A stretch of DNA of 64,000 nt from Saccharopolyspora shandongensis (lineage in GTDB: Bacteria; Actinomycetota; Actinomycetes; Mycobacteriales; Pseudonocardiaceae). The stretch lies in assembly GCF_900106995.1 (NCBI RefSeq), contig NZ_FNOK01000020.1:1-64000 (forward strand), in the 5' to 3' direction. Within the stretch, counting starts at the first letter, position 1; every line of letters begins with the position of its first letter. Under the pieces are notes generated by a model. The model was given only the letters and a program-made list of their open reading frames with translations. It had not been told where the DNA came from and ran no database searches. Positions 8,700 to 62,419 of this stretch are shown here, piece after piece. The translations under genes and the position numbers were made by a program.

Positions 8700-8798
8700 C
8701 GGTTTCGCGCGAAACCGTCATTCCGACGCGTGCAGGAGCCGGTTTCGCGCGAAACCGCCATTCCCACGCGTGCCAGATGACGGTTTCGCGCGAAACCG
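8700..8798. repeat. Three perfect 18-bp palindromes at 40-bp spacing
   Basis: CGGTTTCGCGCGAAACCG occurs at 8700-8717, 8740-8757 and 8781-8798. The spacers are related to one another (both contain CATTCC and ACGCGTGC). The core GTTTCGCGCGAAAC differs from the actinobacterial parS consensus GTTTCACGTGAAAC only at the second and last base of its central four. The array sits just beyond the chitinase stop and upstream of the imine-reductase-like gene. Two other hairpins in the window (35771 and 48060) share the TTTCGCG core. Confidence 0.8.
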
Positions 8799-8820
8799 GC
8801 GCCCCGCCCGAGCCCAACCG

Positions 8821-14567: not shown

Positions 14568-14640
14568 AAACTAAATTTCAGGCTCGCCCTGCGTAGCGGT
14601 GCGGGTGGCGGAGCAAGCTGCGAGGGTGGGCTAAGCGGCT
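14568..14640. repeat. Partial dispersed-repeat sequence between ectB and ectC
   Basis: AAATTTCAGGCTCGCCCTGCGTAGCGGTGCGGGTGGCGG resembles in broken form the left part of the long repeat at 25590-25660 (TGCGTGGCGGTGCGGGTGGCGG is shared nearly exactly). A similar remnant follows the YhgE-like gene at about 40178-40230. It lengthens the ectB-ectC spacer to 121 bp. Confidence 0.5.
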
Positions 14641-18876: not shown

Positions 18877-18926
18877 GGCCCGTGAGTGGTTTGTGTTGCC
18901 ATAGCGACACAAACCACACACGGGCC
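18877..18926. terminator. Dispersed GTGAGTG hairpin, copy c
   Basis: GGCCCGTGAGTGGTTTGTGT pairs with the segment ending CACACACGGGCC, with one mismatch and loop TGCCATAGCG. It stands 22 bp beyond the glyoxalase stop. Confidence 0.7.
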
Positions 18927-19095
18927 GCTACCTGCCGAAAAACGAACGCCACGCATTCGCGGTGTCATCGGGAACGCGGGTGTCCTCTTCGGGCAGTTTG
19001 TGCTCCGGATTCTTGGGCGGGCACTCCGCGCCCGGATAGCGTTTTCCTCGAAAGCGGATCCGCACAACCATTCCTACTATCTCGGAGGAATCATC

Positions 19096-25570: not shown

Positions 25571-25935
25571 CAGTTTCAATTGAAACTGACCCTCAAGTTT
25601 CAATGAGGTTTTTCCAACCTCGTTTTGCGTGGCGGTGCGGGTGGCGGCCCCCCTGCGGGAGTTACAGCGTCCGCCTGGACTGTGGGTGCCCTGACTTATG
25701 TATGCCAATACACGGCGTCAGGGCCGTCCTCGCCAGAGGAACTTCAGAGGGGTGGGCTCCGTGAACCCGCGGCGGTGCCAGTTGCGAGGGTGGACCCGAA
25801 AGCGCCTGACGGCGCTTGGCGACGGCACGCACTCAAGCGCAGGTCAGACACCGCAGCTGCGGTACCCGACCAGGATGAAAAACCCTCAATGGAAACTGCA
25901 CCCCTCCCGGTGTGTCGGGGCACGACGCACCGGAG
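25571..25935 (+). repeat. Long dispersed repeat, copy A
   Basis: Begins with the palindrome CAGTTTCAATTGAAACTG, then AGTTTCAATGAGGTTTTTCC, TGCGTGGCGGTGCGGGTGGC, the hairpin GCCCTGAC...GTCAGGGC (25688-25724) with apical TGTATGCCAATACA, and ends near CCAGGATGAAAAACCCTCAA with a terminal hairpin CCGGTG...CACCGG. A reverse-oriented homologue lies at 61863-62150. The outer ends (AGTTTCAAT...GTTTTTC) are imperfect inverted repeats of each other. No transposase or convincing protein is encoded. It fills the gap between the scramblase-like gene and rlmB. Confidence 0.75.
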
Positions 25936-25937
25936 GG

Positions 25938-25966
25938 TGTGGACAACCTCGTACGGCTGTGGACAA
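25938..25966. promoter_or_regulatory. Pair of perfect DnaA boxes
   Basis: TGTGGACAA, the reverse complement of the actinobacterial DnaA box TTGTCCACA, occurs at 25938-25946 and 25958-25966. The starts are 20 bp apart, about two helical turns, in the same orientation. They lie 63 bp past the rlmB stop and just outside repeat copy A. Confidence 0.55.
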
Positions 25967-29546: not shown

Positions 29547-29592
29547 GCCGTGCGTACTTCGTGTCGCTATCGCAGCACAAAGTGCGCACGGC
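29547..29592. terminator. Dispersed hairpin, copy d, after ispF
   Basis: GCCGTGCGTACTTCGTG and CACAAAGTGCGCACGGC pair with one wobble and one mismatch, loop TCGCTATCGCAG. It lies 20 bp past the ispF stop. Confidence 0.65.
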
Positions 29593-29612
29593 CCCGTGGC
29601 CAGCCGGAATCG

Positions 29613-34894: not shown

Positions 34895-35026
34895 CCAATT
34901 TTGCCTAAAAATGGGAACCCCATCGCACCCCGACACCCCCGCAAGGCTCCGATTTTGCCTAAAATTGGGAACCCCATCGCACCTCGGCACCCCCGCAAGG
35001 CTCTGACTTTGCCTAAAAATGGAGGG
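34895..35026. repeat. 54-bp tandem repeat with AT-rich hairpins
   Basis: Two full units (34895-34948, 34949-35002) and a 24-bp partial third. Each begins with a hairpin such as CCGATTTT-GCCT-AAAATTGG and continues CCCCATCGCACC. The units differ by a few bases only. They lie between the convergent disA and the membrane protein gene and may serve as the terminator; the run of A and T is striking in this GC-rich DNA. Confidence 0.85.
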
Positions 35027-43557: not shown

Positions 43558-43607
43558 GGGCCGTGCGCGTTTTGTGTCGCCATAGCAGCACAAAACGCGC
43601 ACGGCCC
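43558..43607. terminator. Dispersed hairpin, copy f
   Basis: A perfect 19-bp stem, GGGCCGTGCGCGTTTTGTG paired with 43589-43607, loop TCGCCATAGCAG. It is in the space between the convergent DrrB and SARP genes. Confidence 0.8.
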
Positions 43608-43740
43608 CTGTGACCAGCGGAAACCGAACCGCGGACACCCGGCCCCGGCCCACTCACGAGCGCCTGACCAGCGGTGACGGCGCCGCTATCGGTGGTCGCC
43701 GGGAGGTGTCCCCGGCCAGAGCGGAATAATCTTCATGACC

Positions 43741-61862: not shown

Positions 61863-62150
61863 CAGTTTCAATTGAGCGTTTTTCATCCTGGTCAACCCGC
61901 AGCCGCGGGCCGCAAAGGTGCACGTCGATGGGGTGCCGCATGCGCCGCAGGCGCATAACCCACCTACGACACCTGCACCGCCGCAGGTTCTCAGAGGCTT
62001 CCTGGCGAGGACGGCCCCTCCGCCGTGTATTGGACATACATCAGGAGGGGCACCCACAGACCAGGAAGCCTCTGAGGTTCCGCCACCCGCACCGCCACGC
62101 AAATCGAGGTTGGAAAAACCTCATTGAAACCGGGCCCAAGTTTCAGTTGA
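61863..62150 (-). repeat. Long dispersed repeat, copy B (reverse orientation)
   Basis: Starts at CAGTTTCAATTGAGCGTTTT on the + strand and ends at GGTTGGAAAAACCTCATTGA. Read on the minus strand it aligns with copy A at 25571-25935, sharing both ends, TGCGTGGCGGTGCGGGTGGC and TATGTATG..CCAATACACGGC. The central hairpin (62014-62051) has the stem GCCCCTCC/GGAGGGGC where copy A has GCCCTGAC/GTCAGGGC. It occupies the 790-bp gap upstream of the pantothenate operon, which holds no gene. Confidence 0.75.
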
Positions 62151-62194
62151 AACCGGACCCGGGTTTCCGTCGCAGCCGGGCCGGAGCCGCCCAC

Positions 62195-62280
62195 ACCCCT
62201 CCGGCGTGTCGTGGCCCGACGCGCCGGAGATCCGCGATTTCGATGGAAACCGAGGGTCCGATTTCCATTGAGCGTTTTCC
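62195..62280. repeat. Second-module repeats beside copy B
   Basis: A hairpin TCCGGCG...CGCCGGA (about 62200-62230) corresponds, inverted, to the terminal hairpin of copy A. It is followed by GCGATTTCGATGG and GGTCCGATTTCCATTGAGCG, which recall the repeat at 32240. Another partial end, CAGGTGAAAAACCTCAATGA, lies at 62391-62412. Confidence 0.55.
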
Positions 62281-62308
62281 ATCCTCTACGCGGAAGGCCT
62301 GCGTCCTG

Positions 62309-62356
62309 GGTCGTGAGTGGTCATGGCCGCTGTGGCGACCATGGACACTCACGACC
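62309..62356. terminator. Dispersed GTGAGTG hairpin, copy g
   Basis: GGTCGTGAGTGGTCATGG pairs with CCATGGACACTCACGACC with two mismatches, loop CCGCTGTGGCGA. It follows the PrsW gene by 60 bp. Confidence 0.7.
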
Positions 62357-62419
62357 CCTGCGCATTCGGGGCCTGGCCTGACGCCGCAGACCAGGTGAAA
62401 AACCTCAATGAAATCGCGG

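Follow-up and report, generated by a model that had tools for sequence, protein, structure and literature searches.

A probable IS5-type family of small mobile elements in Saccharopolyspora carries a maintained hairpin that may act in mRNA 3' ends

Two similar repeats stand in inverted orientation between genes of the 64,000-nucleotide stretch of the Saccharopolyspora shandongensis genome analysed here (hereafter the window), and they raise the question of what keeps a long hairpin intact in a repeat of this kind. The preliminary description, made from the letters of the window, saw in them a non-coding element with a maintained structure, possibly a MITE or an RNA family. We read both repeats as probable members of a family of non-autonomous IS5-type MITEs whose hairpin acts in mRNA 3' ends, and we give this reading a probability of roughly one half.

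Copy 1 spans 283 bp on the forward strand (25605..25887) with the ends GAGGTTTTTC...GAAAAACCCTC, and copy 2 spans 249 bp on the reverse strand (61874..62122) with the ends GAGGTTTTTC...GAAAAACGCTC. Both start with GAGGTTTTTC and terminate with GAAAAAC[C/G]CTC, and both are flanked by a duplicated AAT, at 25602..25604 and 25888..25890 for copy 1 and at 62123..62125 (element-left) and 61871..61873 (element-right) for copy 2. Copy 1 had earlier been taken to begin at 25571, a range that includes a separate palindromic repeat, AGTTTCAATTGAAACT (25572..25587), which lies outside the MITE and has 76 intact copies in the genome. The alike outer inverted ends of the two copies were correctly recognized, but the alignment reported over most of their length is confined to part of the right half. 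A repeat search of the window returned between-copy complementarity over 62 nt at 90% and 36 nt at 89%. Copy 1 is a variant in which both outer arms are swapped for other, longer arms, as in several further copies of the genome, and copies 1 and 2 can be assigned on these differences to different subfamilies. Each copy contains a core that is matched by our covariance model R1, at 25639..25764 on the reverse strand in copy 1 (57.5 bits) and, end to end, at 61966..62100 on the forward strand in copy 2 (147.4 bits; 26.7 bits for the other strand). R1 was built on the antisense strand, and the strand that we argue to act in copy 1 is the forward one. In the central stem, GCCCTGAC (25688..25695) pairs with GTCAGGGC (25717..25724) on the forward strand of copy 1, and GCCCCTCC (62044..62051) with GGAGGGGC (62014..62021) on the reverse strand of copy 2. 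Reading both copies bears out all three consecutive compensated pairs of the preliminary description, which change from T-A to C-G, from G-C to T-A and from A-T to C-G between copy 1 and copy 2. The window also holds a fragment of the core, comprising its first ~40 nt, at 14576..14623 on the forward strand (25.1 bits at 14591-14623), and an element with like ends but another middle, GAGGTTTTTC...GGAAAACGCTC, at 62270..62406 on the reverse strand, with the non-identical flanks ATT and AAT. Copy 1 follows a Scramblase/DUF2510 gene at ~46 nt from its stop and faces a convergent SpoU-type rRNA methyltransferase gene. Copy 2 follows a PrsW protease gene at ~300 nt, within a tandem gene pair and with another element in between.

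The element is mobile. Across the 10.15-Mb genome (134 contigs), it is a non-coding repeat of many copies, most commonly 249-287 bp long, and its terminal inverted repeats are of the type GAGGTTTTTC / GAAAAAC[GC]CTC. Identical 3-mers flank 45 of the 61 distinct two-ended elements (AAT 27, ATT 11, AGT 3, ACT 2, GAT 1 and CAT 1), where 2000 random pairings of left and right flanks gave an average of 22.3 and never more than 33. In G017, the nearest relative searched, the flanks of copy 1 are 97% and 89% identical and only three bases separate them; the joined flanks align through the copy 1 junction, with three substitutions beside it and CAT as the triplet matching AAT. Copy 1 is thus absent from the same place in G017, as judged from this alignment; in six other genomes the outer flanks alone align. 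Inverted ends, target-site duplications and an empty site in one relative together substantiate the MITE assignment that had been suggested.

The ends and the target vary between species, and the core does not. In S. rosea, the terminal inverted repeats are GAGCCTGTCTTTGAAC / GTTCAAAGACAGGC, and 40 of the 96 two-ended elements have identical flanking 3-mers, all of the form TNA (TCA 23, TGA 16 and TAA 1), the other 56 being non-identical. Within the IS5 family, the ISL2 group duplicates ANT and the IS1031 group TNA. The duplications, mostly ANT in the host genome and TNA in S. rosea, fit these two rules. Sorted by left end, 235 distinct copies fall into types of 82, 23, 9 and 4, plus 117 others. 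One type among these others starts with GAGCCTGTTTCCAGG, about nine bases of which resemble the ends of an IS5-family element of the host genome (L126, contig C55), and a type starting with CTAGGGAGTGTTT seems, by eye, to use CTAG as its target. L126 has the inverted ends GAGGCTGTTGGGTA, a TCA duplication and an IS5-family transposase (NF033580, 220.2 bits; cut-off 110). A second locus of the same genome (L127, contig C123) combines a DUF4096 match with the inverted ends GAGGTCCTAACAG and TAA flanks. The ends of L126 and of the MITE type both begin with GAG[C/G]CTGTT and both go with TNA duplications, but the agreement is limited to about the first nine bases, and BLAST of MITE copies against the IS loci, L126 included, gave chance-level matches only. 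It is possible that L126 and L127 mobilise related MITEs. An autonomous partner with the window-copy ends was not identified in a limited search of left-end matches and DUF4096 loci: nearly all of the 77 left-end matches in the genome are followed by the MITE core, some stretches ending at contig ends, and among the 11 DUF4096 loci, inverted ends could be made out in two (L126 and L127), with a sequence other than that of the window-copy ends. A transposase encoded elsewhere would move the element via its ends and leave the 3-bp target duplication. In S. rosea, the left flank at four loci (L223, L236, L242 and L255) is the conserved GGAACCTCAG of another core copy, and these copies seem to be nested.

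In the host genome, 44 of the 61 elements sit between the two halves of the palindrome AGTTTCAATTGAAACT, which on its distribution is a REP-like family of its own and a common target of this MITE type. Some intergenic sites (L112 and L116) contain two to four copies of the palindrome at spacings of 41-48 bp. The GTTTCAAT motif had suggested a CRISPR, a candidate that we rejected on finding a dispersed palindrome and no spacer array in the copies read. Several other repeats accompany the elements. A second short hairpin repeat of ~49 nt, GCCGTGCG...CGCACGGC, occurs at 18879-18927, 29547-29595 and 43560-43608 and within 62300-62350; between the copies at 29547 and 43560, stem differences on one side are matched on the other, and hairpins like these occur in L226 and L258. 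An intergenic hairpin, CTCCGGCGTGTCGGGCCACGACACGCCGGAGG followed by GTGTGG, adjoins both MITE copies, with changes (25904-25943 and 62191-62230), and others (L120 and L125). Two tandem 54-bp units (CCAATTTTGCCTAAAAATGGGAACCCC...), 93% alike, occupy 34895-35002, with a similar motif in S. elongata (L224), and a unit starting with the palindrome CGGTTTCGCGCGAAACCG is present in three tandem copies at 8700-8814.

The core is an abundant structured repeat of wide range. Its motif has 134+117 matches in the genome with at most one mismatch, compared with 7+7 for a reversed control pattern. DNA searches detected the element in 25 of 61 genomes, namely 21 of the 22 of the genus (its own included) and 4 of the 39 others. 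The covariance model matched 41 of 150 genomes and 13 of 46 genera of the Pseudonocardiaceae, with copy numbers that are lower bounds, as at most 22 candidates per genome were scored; matches across genera reach 121 bits and more. In a draw from the order, 8 of 121 genomes matched, the two outside the family weakly (36.6 and 31.7 bits). A pattern scan of named genomes returned at least 108 stretches, and the 80 matches listed come from Saccharopolyspora species, S. spinosa among them, and one Halopolyspora. The plasmid and phage collections gave no match, and we rejected the idea that the element travels on such replicons. Since matches extend across the whole covariance model with up to 159 bits, the similarity is not one of simple GC-rich sequence, the artefact envisaged in the preliminary description; this match set also contains seven matches of 31-42 bits on the opposite strand, and no count was taken from its alignment. 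A search of the window with 4227 Rfam families gave no match at gathering scores, and a known Rfam RNA was likewise rejected, the best sub-threshold match being mir-512 in L139 (27 of 94 bits). For S. erythraea, 190 putative ncRNAs and 265 intergenic transcripts predicted there are reported in the excerpted texts of PMC3610266 and PMC3827479. Searches of the open-access literature for repeats of this kind in Saccharopolyspora and the Pseudonocardiaceae gave no paper describing one, and the single match, for hairpins in Saccharopolyspora, is by its title and abstract a synthetic-biology review. As far as we have seen, this family of small mobile elements of Saccharopolyspora and some relatives looks undescribed.

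The core, ~135 nt long and more conserved than the ends, forms one long irregular hairpin whose fold is maintained, as its pattern of substitutions indicates. For 52 diverse copies (57 representatives minus L158, L159, L161, L239:30-162 and L243, which were excluded by hand), standard pairing was retained in 94.9% of 2016 cells over 39 pairs; both sides had changed in 23 of the 39 pairs (218 cells), and the covariation score was 0.328. Shuffled alignments gave 82.7% paired cells, 13.7 pairs, 69.4 cells and a score of 0.114, and controls with slid partners 36-48%, 8-12 pairs, 20-33 cells and 0.037-0.079. None of the 500 shuffles and none of the slid controls reached the observed covariation, which upholds the maintained structure proposed at the outset; uncompensated stem changes, the outcome named there as contrary, do occur, in a minority of 5.1% of the cells. 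A larger set comprised the 138 cores of 130-138 nt among 202 distinct copies. Here a home-made tree-based null, in which the changes of each column are kept and redistributed on the tree (12 null alignments), left 4 of 8646 column pairs significant; all four lie in the structure, and these four are all the pairs that are individually supported. Among the top 10, 20 and 30 covarying pairs of this set, 9, 13 and 15 fall within the structure. Parsimony counts 91 double changes between Watson-Crick pairs, 89 of them in the 35 pairs that the folds of the two strands share.

Hairpin-templated correction is known for imperfect palindromes. The element could accordingly be a neutral MITE whose arms stay complementary by replication that repairs one arm from the other, and the two outer arms of copy 1, which differ together from those of copy 2, fit such a process. 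However, templated correction would erase internal loops, and these are almost invariant: the internal mismatch of AAC opposite AAC is retained in 133 of the 138 copies, and the loop strand is CTGTCCTCG or CCGTCCTCG in 121 of them. The hairpin is therefore not the product of plain palindrome repair. This explanation also fails to account for the matches of 121 bits and more between genera and for the conservation, against diverged flanks, of the copies behind gatB described below, and we regard it as very improbable. In the reading that we favour, selection would act on the RNA, the transcribed core folding into a long hairpin with conserved internal loops.

The position of the element relative to genes bears on which strand would be read. 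Genes were placed with a caller based on codon usage; of the 235 distinct copies, 63 were too close to the end of their locus and 6 overlapped coding sequence. The remaining 166 lie mostly behind genes, 151 behind at least one and 15 in divergent gaps, and they divide into 67 tandem sense, 22 tandem antisense, 62 convergent and 15 divergent copies. The total of 67:22 mixes species with and without an orientation bias, since the excess of sense over antisense stems from this genome (13:2) and the group 'other' (32:5); S. rosea (9:4), S. soli (5:4) and S. elongata (6:6) lack it, and S. spinosa (2:1) does not contribute to it either. A larger S. rosea set, obtained from 96 two-ended elements after removal of 3 overlapping coding sequence and 2 at a locus end (n = 91), has 17:17 tandem, 50 convergent and 7 divergent copies, and 236 element-free intergenic gaps of this species comprise 32 convergent, 79 divergent and 125 tandem ones. 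The high-scoring copies of G115, G096 and G033 together with the best matches elsewhere gave 29:6, a count in which one copy is doubled and orthologous sites are included. Restricted to one copy per site (59 of 66 copies kept), the tandem ratio is 25:6 (P = 0.0009). Without the four copies from the genus of the window, 55 copies of other genera remain, with 23 sense and 5 antisense tandem copies (P = 0.0009), 27 convergent and none divergent. This 23:5 differs from the 17:17 of S. rosea (Fisher P = 0.015), the biased sample having been chosen by model score.

An imperfect palindrome of ~130 nt that stands behind genes in many copies also calls to mind a recombination site resembling integron attC, with a folded site behind stop codons. 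The copies stand as individual insertions bounded by inverted ends and 3-bp duplications, and the stretches read contained no cassette array, so that we consider such a site highly improbable. A more serious competitor is a hairpin that works at the DNA level, a selfish device whose fold aids movement, be it as single-stranded DNA, as a cruciform or through the distance that it sets between the ends, with transcription irrelevant. The unbiased orientation in S. rosea agrees with it, and so do motif or end matches numbering in the hundreds in some genomes and the proposal of a hairpin intermediate for REPINs, which show compensatory changes too, in the excerpted text of PMC3116915. Against it stand the one-strand bias behind genes in other genera and the constancy of the core while ends and targets change between species. 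We hold this explanation to be possible but clearly less probable than action in mRNA 3' ends.

If the RNA is what is maintained, it could be read from either strand. We had at one point placed the acting RNA on the antisense strand because of a wobble-pair excess, and we withdrew this assignment after an unpaired-column control, folding energies and gene context had been considered. The corresponding explanation is a trans-acting small RNA transcribed from the antisense strand and multiplied by transposition. On an antisense reading, raw wobble counts favour that strand by 110 to 43 cells, and G-U intermediates outnumber C-A intermediates by 60 to 33. However, unpaired columns are skewed in this direction as well (164 to 111; Fisher P = 0.46 for the comparison with paired wobble), so the wobble test names no strand, an outcome that also agrees with a hairpin acting as DNA. 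The covarying columns 33/103 pair as U-G, C-G or U-A on the antisense strand only, and a GC-rich hairpin precedes the core on this strand in many copies. The low copy number of one to four in six genomes of genus g55 would likewise suit a small RNA. On the other hand, in 164 of 202 copies (105 of the 140 short ones) the more stable fold is that of the strand co-read with the upstream gene, and in three copies behind gatB the core motif starts 3 nt past the stop codon, so that an RNA of this kind would extend with its 3' end into gatB. Taken together, a small RNA from the antisense strand is unlikely, and action on the strand of the upstream gene, with an effect on mRNA 3' ends, is what we infer from the folding energies and the gene context. 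No T-run was noticed behind the hairpin, which speaks against this reading.

In other species, the place where the element meets the gene is consistent with this inference. In the copies of G115, G096 and G033 and the best matches of other genomes, the gap between stop codon and core is mostly 17-33 nt, which would put the start of the element on the stop codon or close to it. In S. rosea, a stop codon pointing at the element directly abuts 17 of 67 left ends and 14 of 67 right ends (distance 0), so that the duplicated TGA would, from the sequence, be the stop codon itself. In this genome, by contrast, 3 of the 24 copies behind a gene are at its stop codon, probably because its element type enters palindromes, and both window copies are further off.

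A case of apparent retention by the host is found in genus g55. Four of its six genomes with matches (G157, G110, G137 and G188) have one copy each in a syntenic place beside gatB, which was identified by GatB_N (373 bits) and GatB_Yqey (131.6 bits). The core motif follows the gatB stop by 3 nt in three genomes and by 22 nt in the fourth (L312). Among the four species, the core is 81-96% identical in pairwise comparison and the last 300 nt of gatB 82-93%, and the sequence 3' of the core is 30-48% identical over 150 nt and 48-65% over the next 150. These copies have no recognisable transposon ends. Pairing is retained via changes on both sides in three of the four, and in L312 one stretch of 14 pairs holds about four mismatches, as read from the alignment by eye. 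In the two other genomes, the best copy of G173 is not at the gatB place, and the sole copy of G077 (L385) shows no alignment beside gatB. Three more pairs of sites are common to two genomes in other genera (L409/L418, L408/L419 and L309/L313). Conservation like that of a gene in a copy that lacks recognisable ends speaks against a hairpin that serves only movement as DNA and in favour of one acting in mRNA 3' ends.

Known systems lend this last reading a plausible mechanism. By analogy, the best precedent appears to be the ERIC/IRU of enterobacteria, which is, in the excerpted account of PMC2229807, a ~127-bp MITE with terminal inverted repeats and a target-site duplication, gives a long stem-loop transcript, is co-transcribed with neighbouring genes and has an orientation-dependent effect on mRNA stability. 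The excerpt gives TA at the ERIC termini and enterobacterial hosts, whereas the present elements have ANT or TNA duplications and IS5-like ends, mainly inhabit one actinobacterial family and include an end-less copy conserved behind gatB. REPINs, or REPs with RAYT, are dispersed extragenic hairpins in which compensatory changes are common, according to the portion of PMC3116915 available; they set a precedent for a mobile hairpin whose stem changes are compensated, but are linked to tyrosine transposases, in contrast to the inverted ends with 3-bp duplication seen here. The Correia/NEMIS elements of Neisseria are again MITEs, with 24-bp terminal inverted repeats, a transcribed stem-loop and proposed cutting by RNase III (PMC2229807, in excerpt); they differ in host and termini, a distinction drawn from their description and not from a sequence comparison. 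In the mechanism that we favour, the location behind genes, in other genomes often in or beside the stop codon, would allow read-through transcription to add the hairpin to the mRNA 3' end. There it would end, protect or trim the transcript, with an ERIC-like effect on the mRNA. Selection would maintain the fold, and helpful copies would be retained, as may have happened with the gatB copy that has no transposon ends.

A more far-reaching version can be offered tentatively, and we think it rather less likely to hold in full. The element would be a transposon-borne mRNA 3'-end module that inserts at or just behind stop codons, the duplication restoring the stop, and the sequence-specific hairpin would supply the gene with a prefabricated 3' end for an RNA-binding factor of the host to recognise. 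Such a module would have spread through the Pseudonocardiaceae by swapping its ends while keeping its RNA, and would have been domesticated behind gatB.

Since the core moves in many genomes and in one genus is conserved as an end-less copy, it lends itself to a direct test of how a selfish hairpin may turn into a 3' UTR of its host. The repeat is also abundant in a genus that includes S. spinosa, the producer of spinosad.
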